Source: Polystyrenella longa
GTDB lineage: Bacteria > Planctomycetota > Planctomycetia > Planctomycetales > Planctomycetaceae
DNA length: 64,000 nt
Assembly: GCF_007750395.1 (NCBI RefSeq)
Contig: NZ_CP036281.1
Location: forward strand, 2,751,001-2,815,000
Direction of reading: 5' to 3'
Position 1 is the first letter of the stretch, and each line of letters starts with the position of its first letter. Below, piece after piece: positions 2,720-25,288 of the stretch. Made by a program: the position numbers and the translations under genes. Under the pieces are notes generated by a model. It searched no databases. It had not been told where the DNA came from and worked only from the letters and a program-made list of their open reading frames with translations.

Positions 2720-7309
<4,590 letters not shown>

Positions 7310-18111: not shown

Positions 18112-18687
18112 GTGGCCTTAACTGAGATCGACAAAAACCTGCTGAAACGCTGTCTGGCCGAAGAACCGGGAGCGTGGAAAGACTTCGTTGATCGATTTCT
18201 AGGGCTCTTTATCCATGTGATTCGTCACACCGCTTCCGCTCGCTCTGCCCAACTGTCCGATCAAGACGTGGAAGATATCTGTTCCGAAATCTTTCTACAA
18301 TTACTGGCGAATGATCATCAGGTTTTGGCTCGTTTTCAGGGTGAATCGTCTTTGGCGACTTATCTGACAGTGATTTCTCGCCGAATTGTGGTGCGTGAAA
18401 TTTCCCAGCGCCGCAAGGCGGAAGCACTGGGGCATGTGACGGCGTCTCGCAGTTCTCTTGATCAGGCTTCTGCCAATCTGGAAGTCGAAAGGTGGGAAGA
18501 TCGGGAACAAGTTCGAACCTTGCTGAATGAACTTCCCGGAAACGAAGCCGAGATTGTGAAGCAATACCATCTCGAAGGTCGTTCCTACCGCGAAATATCT
18601 GCCGCTCTTGGGGTTCCCGAGAATACAATCGGCCCCACGCTCACGCGCGCTCGCACCCGCATGAAGGACAATCAGGTTCGCTCCTGA
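18112..18687 (+). CDS. ECF-type RNA polymerase sigma factor
   Basis: A 191-aa sigma-70 family protein made of only sigma-2 and sigma-4 regions. Region 2 (about residues 15-95) includes QDVEDICSEIFLQLL and FQGESSLATYLTVISRRIV. Region 4 (about 130-185) has the helix-turn-helix YREISAALGVPENTIGPTLTRAR. The GTG start is backed by GGGAGG with 6-nt spacing. No anti-sigma factor is encoded next to it, so its control is unknown. The next gene, a secreted hydrolase fusion, begins 510 bp downstream and could be a target; this is only positional inference. Confidence 0.93.
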   Translation: MALTEIDKNLLKRCLAEEPGAWKDFVDRFLGLFIHVIRHTASARSAQLSDQDVEDICSEIFLQLLANDHQVLARFQGESSLATYLTVISRRIVVREISQRRKAEALGHVTASRSSLDQASANLEVERWEDREQVRTLLNELPGNEAEIVKQYHLEGRSYREISAALGVPENTIGPTLTRARTRMKDNQVRS

Positions 18688-19197: not shown

Positions 19198-21930
19198 ATG
19201 GGAAGGAAAACGAACGTGTCGTGGTGCTCGAGAGTGATGGTTTGCCGCTGGAAGGTATGGTTATTAGTCCTACTTCTCTGCCTCGTACTGGTCCCCCTGC
19301 AGCAGGCGGTTGCAGAGCCTGGTTTTCCTCCTGATTCAGTCTTTAAATTGAAGACGTTTGAGGATCAACGAGGGGTTCACAAGTATTCGCTTTTTCTTCC
19401 GGAAGGATATACCGATTCGAAGAAGTGGCCCGTCGTTCTTTTTCTACATGGTGCGGGTGAACGTGGAACCGACGGCGCAAGTCCAACGCGCGTCGGGTTG
19501 GGCGCAGCCTTACAGGAGCGACCAGAGAATTACCCTTTTATCGCGGTCTTTCCCCAGGTCGAAGACACAACCGGACGTTACCTCGAAGGGTGGGTCGCCG
19601 AGAGTTCTGATGGCAAAAAGGCGATCCAAATTCTCGATGCCGTGATCAACGAGTATTCCGTCGATCGGGATCATCAGATTCTGACAGGCTGGTCGATGGG
19701 AGGGTACGGAGTCTGGAGTCTGGCAGCAGCGACTCCCGATCGTTGGTCCGCTATTATGCCATTAAGTGGTGGAGGAGATCCGGAGTGGGCAGCCAAGCTT
19801 TCCAACACGCCAATCTGGAACGTTCATGGAGAACATGATTTTGTCGTGTTACCTGAAGAGTCGCGAAAAATGGAGGCCGCGTTTAAGGCACTCAAAGAGA
19901 ATCATCAGACATACTTCTCTTACATAACAAACGGTGCCCATGACATCTGGAAAAACGTCTATGGTTACACGGGCGTCGTGAAATGGCTGCTGAATCCTGT
20001 TCCGGAGAATCGAGTCGATCTCACTTTGGCCGAAGCGTTGATCAAGACGCTTCCCGCCCCGTTCGTGCCGGCATTGGAACTCCATCGCGCAGCAAAAATT
20101 CGTGTTGGGAACGAAGCGTTGGAAATGTTCTCCTACGCCGTTCCATCCCGCATTCCCACTGACATGTTGTCTGGGCAACTTGAGAATATTCAAACAACCA
20201 CGGAAGTTGAAGGTTACGCTTTCAATGTTGTCTTCGGCGGTGTTTCTTATCAGGCCCAACTCAAACGGGTCTTGCTGCAAACCACTCCGGATAAACTGCT
20301 TTCAATTAAACTCGGCTTCGAGCGCATCGCACTGACATTAGGAAACACTGCTGTTCAGGGACGCCGACACTCGGCCAATGCTGGTCCAATTCAAGTCACC
20401 TTGGGCACCCGGGAACCTCTCTGGCTCGATATTCGTGTGGAACCCTACCTTGAATCGGGAAGAATCAAACTTCGCAATCGTGGCGCCAATCTGATTTTGG
20501 ATCATAACAACATGCAGGTCTCGCTGCCGGCGGGTATCACGGTGGAAGGTCTTGGGATGACTCGTGAGCGAGTTTCTCGAGGATTAGTAAATGGTTTGTA
20601 TAACAGTCGTGGGCGATTTCAGCAGGAGATTCAGCAACTTGCTCCTCGAATTGTACGTGAACTCGAAAAACGGCTCGACTTAAATGAAATCGTCAAAGAC
20701 AGTTCAAGCGTCTGGCCCCTGCCTGTATACGCTCCTCGAATTAAGATGCGTCCCAATTCCATCTCCGTCGACAGCAACGGCTTTTCACTGGGCCTCGACT
20801 TTCTAGTTGCTTCCTATGTAGACCACGAACCATCGGAATCGCCACGAATTGTGGAGAACGAGGATAATCTGGAAGTAGGTACTGGCCCCGCTCTGGAAAT
20901 CGTACTGGCGACGAACACAATGACCGAAGCGATGCGGTTAATGATTGAAGAAGGGATCTCTTTCGTCGATGTGGAAGACATCCCGGGAACCGCTTTTGAT
21001 CGATGGGCAGACCGGGCGTTCTGGAAGCAGATCCTGGCCGACGAGGGCAAGCCGTTCCCTGATGCGCATACGCGAGTAAGGATGTCAATCAATGCGCCAC
21101 TTGAATTCGGCCCCCATGTCGATGCGAGCATCGATCCGGCTCTGACTGTTGCGGAGAATGTCACTGCAGGAGAGGCGGAATTACTATCGGTCTCGCACAG
21201 TCGTCTGGCATTAACGGACGTTCGCCTCACGTTGATGACGAAAGATCCCAAACGATTTTCCCAGCGATGGAAGCCCTGCTGCACTCTTCAGTTTGATCTC
21301 TCTCAACAATTCGATTTCACTTTCGTCAAGCCGTCACACACGCAACGTGAAATTCGAGTTGGTTTATCTGATCCGATGCAAGTCACTGTGAAATTAGTTT
21401 CTGAGGATGGCAAACAGAGTCCTCTAGCCAGCGAGGAAAAAGCCATCCTGGAATTCCGCACTGCGATGCAGAACTGGTTAGGAAAAGCGACCAGACAATC
21501 AATGGCAGTTCCTGATCTTGATATGGAAAGTGCAGGACTGCGAGCATCCCGATTGGCGTTGCATAAGGATCAGTTGGTTGTCGATTTTGAAACGCCCGTT
21601 GTACGCGTTATTAATACATCTAAGGAGCAACAGCGTTATCAAACACGCGGGCCTTACTCCAGTTGGAGTGAAGACTGGGTTCTGGAGCCTGGGAAAACCC
21701 ATCTTTTTACGGTGCCCTATCCTATGCTTTATCGTCGAAATGCCGGGGAAGTTCAGGAGCTTTATACGCTTCCCCTGGGGGCAGATGCCGAATTTCGAGA
21801 TGTGGCGGGAGTAAACCCGGAAAGTCAGGTGGGACGCCTGTTTCTAAAACAGAGGCAGGTTGTTCAAGATCCGACTGACGATAAGGAACAAATGACAACT
21901 TCGGGACCTGATTTGGGGCAGGCGCAATAA
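19198..21930 (+). CDS. Large exported protein: alpha/beta-hydrolase domain plus unknown C-terminal region
   Basis: A 910-aa protein. Residues about 1-40 are a signal peptide (VWLLVLLLCLVLVPLQQAVA), possibly starting at the Met at residue 14. Residues about 45-275 form an alpha/beta-hydrolase of the secreted esterase/PHB-depolymerase type: FLHGAGERG oxyanion motif, GWSMGGYG nucleophile Ser, an Asp in HGEHDFVV, and a His in NGAHDIW. The remaining about 630 residues are unrecognised. They are rich in alternating beta strands with one long helix (RERVSRGLVNGLYNSRGR, then LAPRIVRELEKRL), compatible with a lipid- or glycan-binding fold. The substrate is unknown. It probably works in the periplasm or outside the cell. 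Confidence 0.85.
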   Translation: MGRKTNVSWCSRVMVCRWKVWLLVLLLCLVLVPLQQAVAEPGFPPDSVFKLKTFEDQRGVHKYSLFLPEGYTDSKKWPVVLFLHGAGERGTDGASPTRVGLGAALQERPENYPFIAVFPQVEDTTGRYLEGWVAESSDGKKAIQILDAVINEYSVDRDHQILTGWSMGGYGVWSLAAATPDRWSAIMPLSGGGDPEWAAKLSNTPIWNVHGEHDFVVLPEESRKMEAAFKALKENHQTYFSYITNGAHDIWKNVYGYTGVVKWLLNPVPENRVDLTLAEALIKTLPAPFVPALELHRAAKIRVGNEALEMFSYAVPSRIPTDMLSGQLENIQTTTEVEGYAFNVVFGGVSYQAQLKRVLLQTTPDKLLSIKLGFERIALTLGNTAVQGRRHSANAGPIQVTLGTREPLWLDIRVEPYLESGRIKLRNRGANLILDHNNMQVSLPAGITVEGLGMTRERVSRGLVNGLYNSRGRFQQEIQQLAPRIVRELEKRLDLNEIVKDSSSVWPLPVYAPRIKMRPNSISVDSNGFSLGLDFLVASYVDHEPSESPRIVENEDNLEVGTGPALEIVLATNTMTEAMRLMIEEGISFVDVEDIPGTAFDRWADRAFWKQILADEGKPFPDAHTRVRMSINAPLEFGPHVDASIDPALTVAENVTAGEAELLSVSHSRLALTDVRLTLMTKDPKRFSQRWKPCCTLQFDLSQQFDFTFVKPSHTQREIRVGLSDPMQVTVKLVSEDGKQSPLASEEKAILEFRTAMQNWLGKATRQSMAVPDLDMESAGLRASRLALHKDQLVVDFETPVVRVINTSKEQQRYQTRGPYSSWSEDWVLEPGKTHLFTVPYPMLYRRNAGEVQELYTLPLGADAEFRDVAGVNPESQVGRLFLKQRQVVQDPTDDKEQMTTSGPDLGQAQ

Positions 21931-22324
21931 ATTCCGGCCTGAGCCGATTAGGGGGAATGGCGCAAAGAAGTACGGGGGAAGGCGTTAGTTTCGATAAACG
22001 GGCGCTTGATTCCCCTTGCCAGTGCTGTCAGAATAAGCTGTTCAGATAAAATGGATCGGCGTTGGTTTCCTGTTCTGGAGGTCACCTTTCGACATGTCTC
22101 TCATTAAGACGGTCGTTCTCGTGACCATTTCTTATCCAATCGACCTGAATCGGACTCGCGAATTAGAGCCAGTCAATTTAGAACCAGACAAAAAGGAACG
22201 GTAACTGTTCCAAAGTTGGTTATAACTGATGGCGATGTTGATTGAGTTTTTCAATCAATCTAATGAGTCTCCTGATCTCAAACATTCGACCCCCCACCTC
22301 TGTTGCGGAAATGAAGAGTTAAGC
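21931..22324. other. Intergenic region upstream of the Hsp70 gene
   Basis: About 394 bp without a supported gene. The frame of the Hsp70 stays open upstream to 22229, but those 32 codons are unlike an Hsp70 N-terminus. No heat-shock element (for example a CIRCE inverted repeat) is visible. Confidence 0.4.
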
Positions 22325-23902
22325 ATGAAAATTCTGGAAGGTAACACTGTTGGTATCGACTTGGGAACCACCTATTCAGCGATTAGTAAGCTGGATGAGG
22401 AAGGAAATCCGACACTGATTCCAAACGCGGACGACAGAATAATCACCCCGTCCGTCGTGTTACTGGGTGACGATGGGCATGTGCTGGTTGGCCCCTCGTT
22501 CGAGCGGATCTCTATCGAAGACCCGACTCACATCGTCGAAGCGATCAAACGGCAGATGGGGAACCCGGAATTTTATGTTGTCTATCAAAACAAAAAACTG
22601 ACATCGGAATTCATCTCCGCGTTGATTCTGAAAAAACTGAAGCAGGACGCCGAAGCCAGAATCGGCCCTATCGGCAACGCCGTGATCACCGTCCCCTATT
22701 ACTTCAACGACGTTCGCCGTAAAGCAACTCAGGACGCGGGACGAATTGCCGGACTCAACGTGATTGACATTATCAACGAACCTACTGCAGCAACGCTTTC
22801 GTACGCTTGGAACAAAGGCGAACTGGGACGAGCCGATCTCGTTCAAAAAGAGAAATCAATCCTCGTCTACGACCTCGGTGGTGGAACGTTCGACGTGACG
22901 GTTGTGAGCTACACTCCGACTCACTTCCGCGTATTGGCAACCGATGGAGACGTTATGCTTGGTGGTCTCGACTGGTCACAGCGAATCGTCGACCATATTG
23001 CCGAACAGTTCCGTCGCAAATTTGGAGACGATCCTCGTGAAGATCCGGAAACACTCCGTATTTTCTCTCAGGAAGCGGAAGACGCCAAACGACAATTGAG
23101 TAAGAAAACTCAGGTTCCGATTAACGTTTACTATAAAGGTAAAACGCTTACCGTCAGTCTTTCGCGTGCTGACTTTGAACGGATGACGTCTGACCTGATG
23201 CAGCGAACCAAAGATACGACAGAACTCGTACTGCAACAGGCTGGTATCCGGCTCGAAGATCTGGACGACGTTATTCTGGTGGGTGGTTCAACCTACATGC
23301 CTGTGGTCGAACACATGTTACGAGAAGTTTGCAAACGCGAGCCATCCCGTGAGCTGCAACCAGAAGAAGCCGTTTCCCAGGGAGCCGCCATTCACGCTGC
23401 GATTCTGGAAGCGAAAGCGACCGGCGGACAGGGACAGATCGCTCAGGCCGTGATTAAACGTCTGCAGTCAGTACAGACCAGCGATGTGAATTCGCACTCA
23501 CTGGGAGTCAAACTGACCGATCCCAATGATCGTGGTCGGAAGATGAATCACATTATGATTCCTCGAAATACAGAAATCCCCTACTCAACCACGCAGCGAT
23601 TTGTGACCAACTCACCCAATCAGCAGCGGATTCATGTCCATATTCTGGAAGGGGAAACTTCCGATCCGGATGCTTGTTCACAAATCGGCGACTTCCGCGT
23701 TTACGATTTACCAGAGAACTTACCCAAGGGTTCACCGGTTGAATTGAGTTATCAGTACGATTCCAGCGGACGTATCAGTGCTGTCGCTAAAGAGTTGACC
23801 AGCAACAAGGCTGCTTCAACTGAGATCGTACGCGATTCCGGCTTGGACGATGAAGGCATTGATGTCTTTCAGCGTCTGGCTGATGAGTACAAAGTGGAGT
23901 AA
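22325..23902 (+). CDS. Hsp70-family chaperone lacking the C-terminal lid
   Basis: A DnaK-like ATPase of about 525 aa starting at the ATG 22325 (MKILEGNTVGIDLGTTYS). The nucleotide-binding domain (about 5-385) has all signature motifs: GIDLGTTYS, the VPYYFND/NEPTAATLSY segment, YDLGGGTFDVTVV and VGGSTYMPVV. Residues about 400-500 resemble the substrate-binding beta-sandwich (HSLGVKL, IPRNTEIP, IHVHILEGE). The helical lid and terminal tail of canonical DnaK (about 638 aa) are absent. It is therefore a divergent paralogue, not housekeeping DnaK, and no grpE or dnaJ is adjacent. The next gene downstream carries a degenerate J-like domain, suggesting a functional pair, although a terminator separates them. 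Confidence 0.93.
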   Translation: MKILEGNTVGIDLGTTYSAISKLDEEGNPTLIPNADDRIITPSVVLLGDDGHVLVGPSFERISIEDPTHIVEAIKRQMGNPEFYVVYQNKKLTSEFISALILKKLKQDAEARIGPIGNAVITVPYYFNDVRRKATQDAGRIAGLNVIDIINEPTAATLSYAWNKGELGRADLVQKEKSILVYDLGGGTFDVTVVSYTPTHFRVLATDGDVMLGGLDWSQRIVDHIAEQFRRKFGDDPREDPETLRIFSQEAEDAKRQLSKKTQVPINVYYKGKTLTVSLSRADFERMTSDLMQRTKDTTELVLQQAGIRLEDLDDVILVGGSTYMPVVEHMLREVCKREPSRELQPEEAVSQGAAIHAAILEAKATGGQGQIAQAVIKRLQSVQTSDVNSHSLGVKLTDPNDRGRKMNHIMIPRNTEIPYSTTQRFVTNSPNQQRIHVHILEGETSDPDACSQIGDFRVYDLPENLPKGSPVELSYQYDSSGRISAVAKELTSNKAASTEIVRDSGLDDEGIDVFQRLADEYKVE

Positions 23903-23938
23903 AGGGGAACCAGAAAAGCTTCCAATTTAATCCAGCTG

Positions 23939-23960
23939 GGCCCCAATGGGGCCTTTTTTT
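23939..23960 (+). terminator. Intrinsic terminator after the Hsp70 gene
   Basis: A GC-only 6-bp stem (23939-23944 with 23948-23953, 3-nt loop) is followed directly by seven Ts. It is 36 nt past the stop codon. Confidence 0.8.
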
Positions 23961-24241
23961 ATGGATTCAAGCGCTTATTCCAGATAGCCGTAGCGTGTTC
24001 TGGCGGCGTAGCCTACTGTTTTTAAGGGCTTTTCGGGACCGATAGCCGCCACACTTATCCTGGACAGGATTTAATCTCCGGGACGAACGGGTTTCGGAAA
24101 TAGTAACTGTGAATATCTCAGAGATATTTGAAACTTCGCGCCGATCATGCCGATGATGTAAATAGCACGGATGTTTGTTTAGTGTTATTCTTTTTGAACG
24201 AAAAACCACTTTCCAGCACTAGGAGAGAAGGAGCCTGAAGC
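23961..24241. promoter_or_regulatory. Leader of the J-like/MshEN gene
   Basis: A gap between the Hsp70 terminator and the next start. It holds the promoter for the downstream gene and ends with GAAGGAG ahead of the GTG start. No other signal is identified. Confidence 0.35.
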
Positions 24242-25288
24242 GTGGCCTTGGATGTCTATAAAGATTGGCTCGGCATTCCGGAAGGGGATCGCCCCCCGGA
24301 TCACTATCAGTTGTTGCGATTGCTGCAATTTGAAGATGACCCCGCCAAAATCGAAGCGCATTATAAAAAACTGAATGCGCATGTTCGCAAATACGCCACG
24401 GGAAAATTCCAGCAGGAGTCACAGGATCTCCTGAATGAACTCGCGCGAGCGATGTTATGCCTGACTGACCCTGAGCGAAAACAGGAATACGACGAGTCTT
24501 TAGGACGACACTTTGACGCCGACGTCGTCGAAGAAGGTCGCAAATCGATGGGCGGATGGCTAGTCGCCAATGGCCATCTCAGCAAAGCTCAGGTAAAAGA
24601 GGCGGAAACGTTCGCCGAGGCCCGCGGACTCGATCTGCGCGATGCGTTCGTCCAGATGCGACTGGTTGAACCAGAACTGGCGACTCGTGCTTATGCAGAG
24701 GAAAAGGGACGATCATACGTCGACCTCAACCTCACCCTGCCCGATGACTCCGTGCTCGATAAGACACCGCGGCGAACGGTGAAAAAATATTCGGTGATTC
24801 CCTTATTCATCGAAGACGACCGGGTGCTGGTCGCGTCCGTCTATGAACCGACACACGAATTGGAAGACGAATTCCGGCTTCGTTATGGCGTGCCAATGCA
24901 TGTCGTAATGGCCCCCCCATTACAGATTCAGCAGGCGATCTCAAAATACTACGCTCCTGGAATGCGTGAGGGAGCCAGCGATGACGATGTCGAGACGACT
25001 GCTTCAGGGAAATCGAAGTCCAAACCCAAAAAGGCTAAGGCGGCGAAGGCATCTTCCGGACCCGTCGTGCACTTCTCTCAGCTCGAACCCGAAGAGCAGA
25101 AAAAACGTCGACAGATCGGTGCGATTGCCATCAATCTATCATTCATACTCGGATATGTCCTCGATAAGTTTGTGCTCGAGCCCTACCTTCTTCCTGACGC
25201 ATTGATCTTTGGCTGGATTCCCACCCTGGGTACTTGGGGATTGCTGGGAGGCGTGCTTGTTTGGCTGTTCGGTTCTTACTGGAAATAA
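24242..25288 (+). CDS. Membrane protein with degenerate J-like domain and MshEN-like domain
   Basis: A 348-aa protein with a GTG start and GAAGGAG ribosome-binding site. Residues about 18-88 look like a J domain (DHYQLLRL start, helix II KIEAHYKKLNAHVRKY, and the LNELARAMLCLTDPERKQEYDESLG end), but the HPD tripeptide that stimulates Hsp70 is missing. Residues about 100-240 resemble the N-terminal domain of GspE/PilB/MshE ATPases: MGGWLVANGHLSKAQV, a second copy-like stretch after it, then PRRTVKKYSVIPLF and VLVASVYEPT. A Lys-rich linker (about 255-275) leads to two hydrophobic segments (about 291-308 and 322-344) that should anchor it in the membrane. The position right after a lidless Hsp70 suggests they cooperate. 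The function is unknown. Confidence 0.82.
   Translation: MALDVYKDWLGIPEGDRPPDHYQLLRLLQFEDDPAKIEAHYKKLNAHVRKYATGKFQQESQDLLNELARAMLCLTDPERKQEYDESLGRHFDADVVEEGRKSMGGWLVANGHLSKAQVKEAETFAEARGLDLRDAFVQMRLVEPELATRAYAEEKGRSYVDLNLTLPDDSVLDKTPRRTVKKYSVIPLFIEDDRVLVASVYEPTHELEDEFRLRYGVPMHVVMAPPLQIQQAISKYYAPGMREGASDDDVETTASGKSKSKPKKAKAAKASSGPVVHFSQLEPEEQKKRRQIGAIAINLSFILGYVLDKFVLEPYLLPDALIFGWIPTLGTWGLLGGVLVWLFGSYWK

Follow-up and report, generated by a model that had tools for sequence, protein, structure and literature searches.

A conserved planctomycete gene pair: a lidless Hsp70 and a membrane-anchored J-like protein without HPD

The HPD tripeptide is regarded as the key of J proteins, and an Hsp70 gene followed by a gene for a J-like protein without HPD raises the question of whether the two products still belong together and, if so, through what kind of contact. 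Such a locus lies in Polystyrenella longa (Planctomycetota, Planctomycetaceae), within a stretch of 64,000 nucleotides (RefSeq assembly GCF_007750395.1, contig NZ_CP036281.1, positions 2,751,001 to 2,815,000 of the forward strand), referred to here as the window and numbered from its first letter. The original prediction, made from the letters alone, placed at 22325-25288 an Hsp70 without a lid next to a membrane J-like protein without HPD and suggested a planctomycete-specific chaperone or signalling module. We propose, with a probability slightly above one half (about 0.56), that the products of the two genes form a dedicated Hsp70/J-like module, joined by a contact that does not depend on HPD and, here, held at the membrane. 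This reading is drawn from sequences and their comparison: a lidless Hsp70 with ATPase residues, a predicted J fold without HPD, co-conservation, linkage, and interface changes on both sides.

The first gene and its parts are as follows.
22325-23902, + strand: lidless Hsp70 gene, 525 residues, stop included in the coordinates, delimited by the Pfam HSP70 match and by ortholog starts and ends.
22346-23413, + strand: ATPase (nucleotide-binding) domain, residues 8-363, its catalytic residues unaltered in all 48 orthologs.
22766-22768, + strand: D148, equivalent of DnaK R167, the contact of the HPD aspartate; D in 48 of 48 orthologs.
23393-23395, + strand: H357, equivalent of DnaK Q378, the second HPD contact; H in 48 of 48 orthologs.
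23414-23485, + strand: interdomain linker, lengthened, with polar residues versus LLL in DnaK, from the alignment to E. coli DnaK.
23486-23824, + strand: substrate-binding beta subdomain, residues 388-500, from the alignment to that of DnaK.
23825-23899, + strand: short C-terminal stretch ending in YKVE, without a lid; same end residue in 26 of 26 relatives.

The frame is open upstream to an ATG at 22229, and ortholog matches start at 22325. The protein scores 397 bits against Pfam HSP70 (E 1.6e-118, cut-off 20.6), with a best stretch that extends to position 518 of the 599 in the profile, and it has the two parts that define the Hsp70 superfamily, namely an ATPase domain with catalytic residues and a substrate-binding beta subdomain. 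In the alignment it retains the equivalents of DnaK D8, T11, K70, E171, D194, G196-198 and T199, and the ATPase domain has a mean pairwise identity of 75% among 25 sequences. Its chain continues for 19 residues after DnaK position 507, compared with 132 in E. coli DnaK, and lacks the canonical lid; against the NCBIfam DnaK equivalog it scores 408 bits, below the cut-off of 648. The description of an Hsp70 with ATPase motifs and a beta part but no lid was therefore correct, the catalytic residues being kept and the chain stopping one helix past the beta part. The stop falls at the identical residue in all 26 relatives in which the Hsp70 end lies inside the fetched locus, which suggests that the lidless form is inherited and not a truncation in a single genome. 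A pseudogene or truncated DnaK is ruled out by this common end residue together with the divergence of the J part of the neighbouring gene, where nonsynonymous divergence (dN) is 0.057 and synonymous divergence (dS) 1.66 (computed against a same-genus draft, dS being saturated over the whole J-like gene). Matches short of query residues 12-500 and identical sequences are left out of the ortholog counts, and the 48 distinct orthologs include close relatives and are not independent. An AlphaFold model of the Hsp70, built from two sequences and with a mean predicted local distance difference test score (pLDDT) of 45.5, was not used.

The second gene and its parts are as follows.
24242-25288, + strand: J-like/MshEN membrane protein gene, 348 residues, GTG start, stop included in the coordinates; in 36 of 59 related genomes, its own included.
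24242-24508, + strand: J-like domain, residues 1-89, with the leading motif YKDWLGIP and without HPD, recognised by Foldseek matches to J domains and by profile comparison.
24386-24394, + strand: R49-K50-Y51 at the end of helix II, the place of HPD if helix II is aligned ungapped; R49 and Y51 in 31 of 31 orthologs, register uncertain by three residues.
24551-24961, + strand: MshEN domain, residues 104-240, with a degenerate cyclic di-GMP (c-di-GMP) motif, from Pfam, Foldseek and motif counts.
24962-25087, + strand: variable Lys-rich linker, residues 241-282, identity 22%, pLDDT below 50 for most of 249-273.
25121-25177, + strand: membrane segment 1, residues 294-312, hydropathy 1.73.
25205-25261, + strand: membrane segment 2, residues 322-340, hydropathy 1.51.

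Against Pfam DnaJ this protein scores 15.7 bits, under the cut-off of 27.8, yet the match spans the full profile (1-63 of 63). Its AlphaFold model (mean pLDDT 85) matches J-domain structures with probabilities up to 1.00 and target template modelling (TM) scores up to 0.85 (0.84 for 6rzy_A and 0.85 for 2och), but the Foldseek E-value is weak, 0.064 at best. In a single profile comparison, 32 J-like sequences match 30 J domains (E. coli DnaJ and 29 from planctomycetes) with a probability of 93.5 and an E-value of 2.2e-7. HPD occurs in none of the 31 aligned J-like orthologs, the corresponding region in the window being HVRKYATG. Mean pairwise identity among these 31 sequences is 75% in the J part, 53.5% in MshEN, 22% in the linker and 26% in the membrane part, and their hydrophobic segments, two in 26 proteins and three in five, lie at the C terminus. 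An N-terminus that folds like a J domain, lacks HPD and is followed by two terminal membrane segments had been predicted, and the model, the 31 orthologs and the segments at 294-312 and 322-340 all agree with it; what the original prediction overlooked in this architecture was the MshEN domain and the rewritten interface of the Hsp70.

The MshEN domain is recognised by Pfam over residues 157-241 (51 bits, cut-off 23.1, E 1.4e-13), and its bounds at 104-240 are taken from the structural match and the alignment. The model matches the N-domains of PilB, PilF and MshE, with a best Foldseek E-value of 3.7e-7 for the PilB N-terminal domain. MshEN receptors of c-di-GMP carry two 24-residue RLG...Q motifs (PMC5013675), and the J-like protein lacks this pair of motifs: with the register set by eye, the Arg place of motif I is P, T or S in 29/31 sequences and its Gln place Ala in 28/31, while the Gly place of motif II is Arg in 29/31 and its Gln place Glu in 26/31. 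The score against NF053729 is 16.5 bits, compared with a cut-off of 38. A c-di-GMP-sensing chaperone was thus ruled out as the main reading, and the replacement of the c-di-GMP Arg, Gly and Gln in most sequences suggests that this MshEN probably binds a protein and not c-di-GMP. The same genome encodes two more proteins with MshEN-like parts, of 598 and 572 residues (loci L003 and L004, 4642-4648 kb).

How, then, could a J-like domain without HPD address an Hsp70? Each HPD residue has its own contact in DnaK, D35 binding R167 and Q378, H33 binding L391 of the linker, and P34 touching P419 (PMC8215388); moreover, R167H suppresses D35N (PMC5519331). In the window's Hsp70 none of the canonical features, R167, Q378 and a hydrophobic linker, is present: D, H and polar residues stand in their places. 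The P419 equivalent stays P in 48/48 orthologs, the equivalents of L390-392 are polar or small in most, the E206 equivalent is R in 40 and K in four, and the E217 equivalent is R in 38 and K in seven. On the J-like side, R49 and Y51 are invariant in 31/31 and K50 is found in at least 90%. An ungapped helix II puts R49-K50-Y51 at the place of HPD, the profile comparison A52-T53-G54. Because this register is uncertain, and because other J-like domains do not all have R49, a reciprocal charge swap between R49 and the aspartate at position 167 is kept as a possibility only.

The loss of HPD could also be read in a different way. The domain may be a pseudo-J of the Pam16 kind, which would bind or compete with a canonical HPD J protein and regulate the Hsp70 remotely, without a J-type contact. 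The absence of HPD in 31/31 orthologs is what such a protein would show, pseudo-J domains with this role have been described (PMC13254874), and the window's own genome has two J proteins above the Pfam cut-off. However, no canonical J gene turned up in 23 neighbourhood loci when they were searched with the J part of E. coli DnaJ, and the Hsp70 itself has lost R167 and Q378, the contacts of HPD in DnaK, and we therefore regard this explanation as improbable.

The whole-genome searches covered the window's own phylum, and a restriction to planctomycetes cannot be read from them. With an Hsp70 ortholog defined by a best match of E 5.6e-191 or lower, the J-like protein is present in 36 of 59 related genomes, the Hsp70 in 35 and both in 35 (own genome included); neither gene is found in 23/59, among them the same-family genomes G002 (65% complete) and G013 (91%). 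In 30 genomes out of the 35 with both, the Hsp70 gene immediately precedes the J-like gene in the same orientation, and the neighbourhood seen in the window is accordingly conserved in related genomes, as the original prediction required. Among 392 sampled genomes of the phylum, the pair is present in 27/27 members of the window's family and in G045, from another family, and G409 has a weak J-like match (E 6e-34) without an Hsp70. Across the 23 neighbourhood loci (about 10-20 kb; six of them fetched around genes known to be apart, in three genomes), the J family occurs in 20 and the Hsp70 in 18, and, open reading frames (ORFs) antisense to the pair excepted, other clusters occur in at most five. 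Two of the window's genes upstream of the pair recur in this way, a 910-residue esterase-like protein (19198-21930) in 5/23 loci and a sigma-factor-like protein (18112-18687) in 4/23, both labels being judged from sequence alone. A contig scan matched two loci, both in planctomycete metagenome-assembled genomes.

The gap between the two genes ranges from 3 to 497 bases, with a median of 119, in 26 relatives, and in the window it contains one further feature.
23939-23960, + strand: terminator-like hairpin, 6-bp stem, 3-base loop, T7, read from the sequence.
The hairpin that had been raised as a caveat is thus real, but it carries less weight than it was given: a simple scan finds a terminator-like hairpin between the genes in 3/26 relatives, and the window's terminator therefore looks local.

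The Hsp70 belongs to a wider planctomycete group whose members lack R, N and Q at DnaK positions 167, 170 and 378 (hereafter R-N-Q). In a tree of 77 ATPase domains (columns 167, 206, 217 and 378 removed, rooted on HscA, one remote Hsp70 of region L176 dropped), 70 sequences without R-N-Q group together, with low support (0.41), and two DnaKs, HscC and three other planctomycete Hsp70s fall outside. Sixty regions were fetched around such Hsp70s and a few others, and 58 of them contain 60 Hsp70s without R-N-Q; residue 167 in these is D in 54, E in three, A in two and N in one, and the tail past DnaK 507 has 19 residues in 27 proteins, 20-100 in 16 and more than 100 in 17. A J-like gene is found in ten of the 60 regions (L118, L125, L176, L177, L179, L180, L181, L183, L184 and L195), each at most 1.2 kb from an Hsp70; L118 is the orthologous pair of G045, which leaves nine further cases, and L176, L177 and L178 had been chosen on the hint of a J match, L178 having an R-N-Q Hsp70 and no J-like gene. 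Related J-like domains adjoin other Hsp70s of the group both elsewhere in the window's family, in different genera, and in three more families.

A forward test used the codon pattern for D-x-x-NEPTA across the 392 genomes, and six regions outside the known places were fetched. Three of the six contain complete Hsp70s of the group, in which position 167 is D, position 378 is H or Y and the linkers read VNSHS or VNAHS, and two of these three have J-like neighbours (G200 and G398; none for G399); the regions of G067, G241 and G287 hold no Hsp70 of the group, those of G067 and G241 only remote relatives. A J-like domain lies within 5 kb at 27 of 41 pattern sites; this count leans on a J-like profile that contains some of the same domains, on a search with at most 13 candidates scored per genome, and on many orthologs of the window's pair. 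In single-contig genomes, 14 of 18 sites lie within 5 kb of a J-like domain, where 0.05 are expected under uniform placement, uncorrected for kinship. Independent evidence of linkage comes down to five families (f1, f7, f42, f82 and f70), each with one linked pair or more. One may argue that the gene order is merely inherited and has no functional meaning, as all pairs come from one phylum and most from one family, and a terminator splits the genes in the window. Yet the J proteins are about 50% identical between genera, in surroundings where other genes recur in at most five of 23 loci; the link exceeds its expected frequency in single-contig genomes and is seen in new lineages; and G009 and G034 retain both genes although the two lie apart. 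We consider plain inheritance of gene order very improbable, and, as far as the genomes compared can tell, the Hsp70/J-like pairing is more than local adjacency.

Among ten J-like proteins scanned with Pfam, FGE-sulfatase is over the cut-off in those of L184 and L239 and WD40 in that of L181, all Hsp70-adjacent; zinc-ribbon matches lie below the cut-off in those of L125 and L176, and the J-like part reaches no Pfam cut-off in any of the ten. Several arrangements of these genes may be recorded in their own right. In L125 (2084-4603; G094, outside the window's class), a protein kinase and a lidless Hsp70 with D at 167 are fused in one ORF, with a J-like protein and another lidless Hsp70 following nearly without gaps. 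In L239 (G200), two J-like genes (2-955 and 2845-5043), one of them fused to FGE-sulfatase, flank a lidless Hsp70, and L176 (1805-7663; G017) has two tandem lidless Hsp70 frames and an 884-residue J-like frame, as stop-to-stop frames 3 bases apart. Class relatives also have Hsp70 tandems (L215, L247 and L248): position 167 is A in one copy, whose tail has 19 residues, and R or G in the other, whose tail is long. The window's own genome encodes a second non-canonical Hsp70 (L196, 6649-8643, in the 2529 kb region) of 665 residues, with D at 167, F at 378 and 157 residues past DnaK 507, in a region without a J-like gene. Finally, a short J protein with PPD in place of HPD lies near an R-N-Q Hsp70 in G003 (L245, 6560-6925).

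A broader reading would place the pair in a parallel planctomycete Hsp70/J network beside DnaK/DnaJ, composed of altered Hsp70s, many of them lidless and marked by R167 to D, Q378 to H, Y or F and a VNSH-type linker, and of a mostly HPD-less J-like family. Their contact would have been rewritten jointly, the loss of HPD would be adaptive rather than decay, and the window's pair would be the membrane-anchored member, near-universal in its family, while others would be coupled to kinase, WD40 or FGE-sulfatase parts. We hold this only tentatively, short of even odds.

Several observations weigh against a dedicated module. One genome of the 59, the same-genus draft G001 (78% complete), has the J-like gene with no Hsp70 upstream and no ortholog found. 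The genes are apart in five of the 35 genomes with both (G007, G009, G025, G030 and G034), and in G009 and G034, which are single-contig genomes, the separation is true, both genes being retained nevertheless; the window's own two genes are separated by the terminator. In the J-like domain, helix II carries a mean charge of +5.8 (n=31), more basic than the +3.8 (n=30) of canonical J domains, and the facing Hsp70 segment has a charge of +1 or +2, versus -5 in E. coli DnaK, so that the canonical electrostatic docking is not kept and is unlikely as such. In the wider group, 48 of the 60 Hsp70s without R-N-Q have no J-like gene within 2 kb and 12 have one; such a neighbour is absent at 12 closest-paralog regions (L106-L117), at six of family f3 (L119-L124) and at 16 of 17 long-tailed Hsp70s, several neighbour-less contigs ending close by. 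The altered contact residues are not tied to J-like adjacency. In addition, both J-like proteins of G200 carry an HPD string in a loop, a few positions after the R column; the other aligned J-like domains lack it, and its presence may be an older state or chance.

The 48 Hsp70s without a J-like neighbour slightly lower the odds of the dedicated module and of the parallel network, and raise those of a third account, in which the two proteins share a pathway or regulon and never touch, the J-shaped domain binding, for example, an acidic lipid or nucleic acid through its basic helix II. The charge of that helix is in line with this account, MshEN and the membrane segments suggest a membrane receptor, and J-like domains exist without an Hsp70 neighbour, as do two of the three in the window's own genome, alongside the majority of sister Hsp70s that have no J-like neighbour. 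Against it, J-like domains adjoin Hsp70s of the group in five families, in varied arrangements and fusions, suggesting that the J-like domain is what they have in common, and we judge this account unlikely. The neighbour-less sister Hsp70s either have J-like partners encoded elsewhere, or the J-like link is special to some members of the group.

Hsp70s with J proteins are already known, and a conserved pair without lid, HPD or R167 would be a new form of them. Searches of open-access literature, subscription papers being mostly outside it, brought up no publication dealing with this pair, with a planctomycete J family lacking HPD or with Hsp70s carrying R167D. The nearest known system found is E. 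coli HscC with DjlB and DjlC: HscC is a divergent, shorter Hsp70 (556 residues), djlC adjoins its gene and djlB lies close by, much like the window's pair, and DjlB and DjlC have a hydrophobic C-terminal stretch, read from sequence, like the C-terminal membrane segments of the J-like protein. DjlB and DjlC carry HPE and interact with HscC (PMC13254874), which, unlike the window's Hsp70, retains R, N and Q at DnaK 167, 170 and 378; the combination of an HPE or HPD partner with an Hsp70 R167 is thus missing from the window's pair. E. coli DnaK shares the ATPase domain and the substrate-binding beta part, with 39% identity in the alignment, and from it the window's Hsp70 differs by the missing lid, R167D, Q378H, a polar linker and a basic J-docking patch. 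Pam16 and other HPD-less (type IV) J proteins have a J domain with HPD replaced, as the J-like protein does, but Pam16, a eukaryotic protein, has the canonical J protein Pam18 as its partner (PMC13254874), whereas the neighbour here is an altered Hsp70. With MshEN/PilB-N (GSPII) domains the J-like protein shares the Pfam match and the predicted fold, but its MshEN is not fused to an ATPase and the c-di-GMP Arg, Gly and Gln are mostly replaced.

Two further systems bear comparison. In GAP1-N2 GTPase systems, bacterial Hsp70s, one of them without a peptide-binding domain, are coupled to J domains that are fused to other parts (PMC7159879); unlike in these systems, no GTPase or GrpE cluster was recognised among the genes recurring beside the pair, as judged from sequences. 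In the PilZ-DnaK chaperones of Myxococcus xanthus, a c-di-GMP-type domain is associated with a DnaK-like protein (PMC10313047), the domain being joined to DnaK, going by the name, whereas here a degenerate MshEN sits in the partner. A defence or phage origin of the pair was rejected, with no PADLOC match for either protein and PHROGs matches for the Hsp70 only.

How might a dedicated module work? Binding, an effect on the ATPase, clients, location and the function of the pair are the part that we infer. By a rewired contact that dispenses with HPD and R167, the J-like domain would bring the Hsp70 to the inner membrane, on its cytoplasmic side, and ATP binding and hydrolysis would toggle the Hsp70 between docked and released states. 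In DnaK, the lid slows peptide dissociation (PMC8215388); thus, a lidless Hsp70 should bind its clients briefly, and would act less as a folding chaperone than as a switch driven by ATP or an assembly factor, serving a membrane or envelope complex. More generally, the J-like domain may be the docking part for Hsp70s of the group, while the remainder of each J-like protein sets the place, and J-like proteins beside sister Hsp70s would recruit them elsewhere through WD40, FGE-sulfatase or other parts.

According to a 2026 review, replacements of HPD lead to loss of ATPase stimulation, HPE being tolerated, and whether deviations from HPD are accidental or positively selected is enigmatic (PMC13254874). 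Here, a strongly conserved J-like protein without HPD stands beside an Hsp70 that is altered at the very residue that reads HPD, and J-like domains of related sequence again adjoin related Hsp70s. The pair therefore makes the question of HPD deviation testable, by asking whether an Hsp70 with D at 167 responds to an HPD-less J-like domain, and what role a lidless Hsp70 may have at the membrane.

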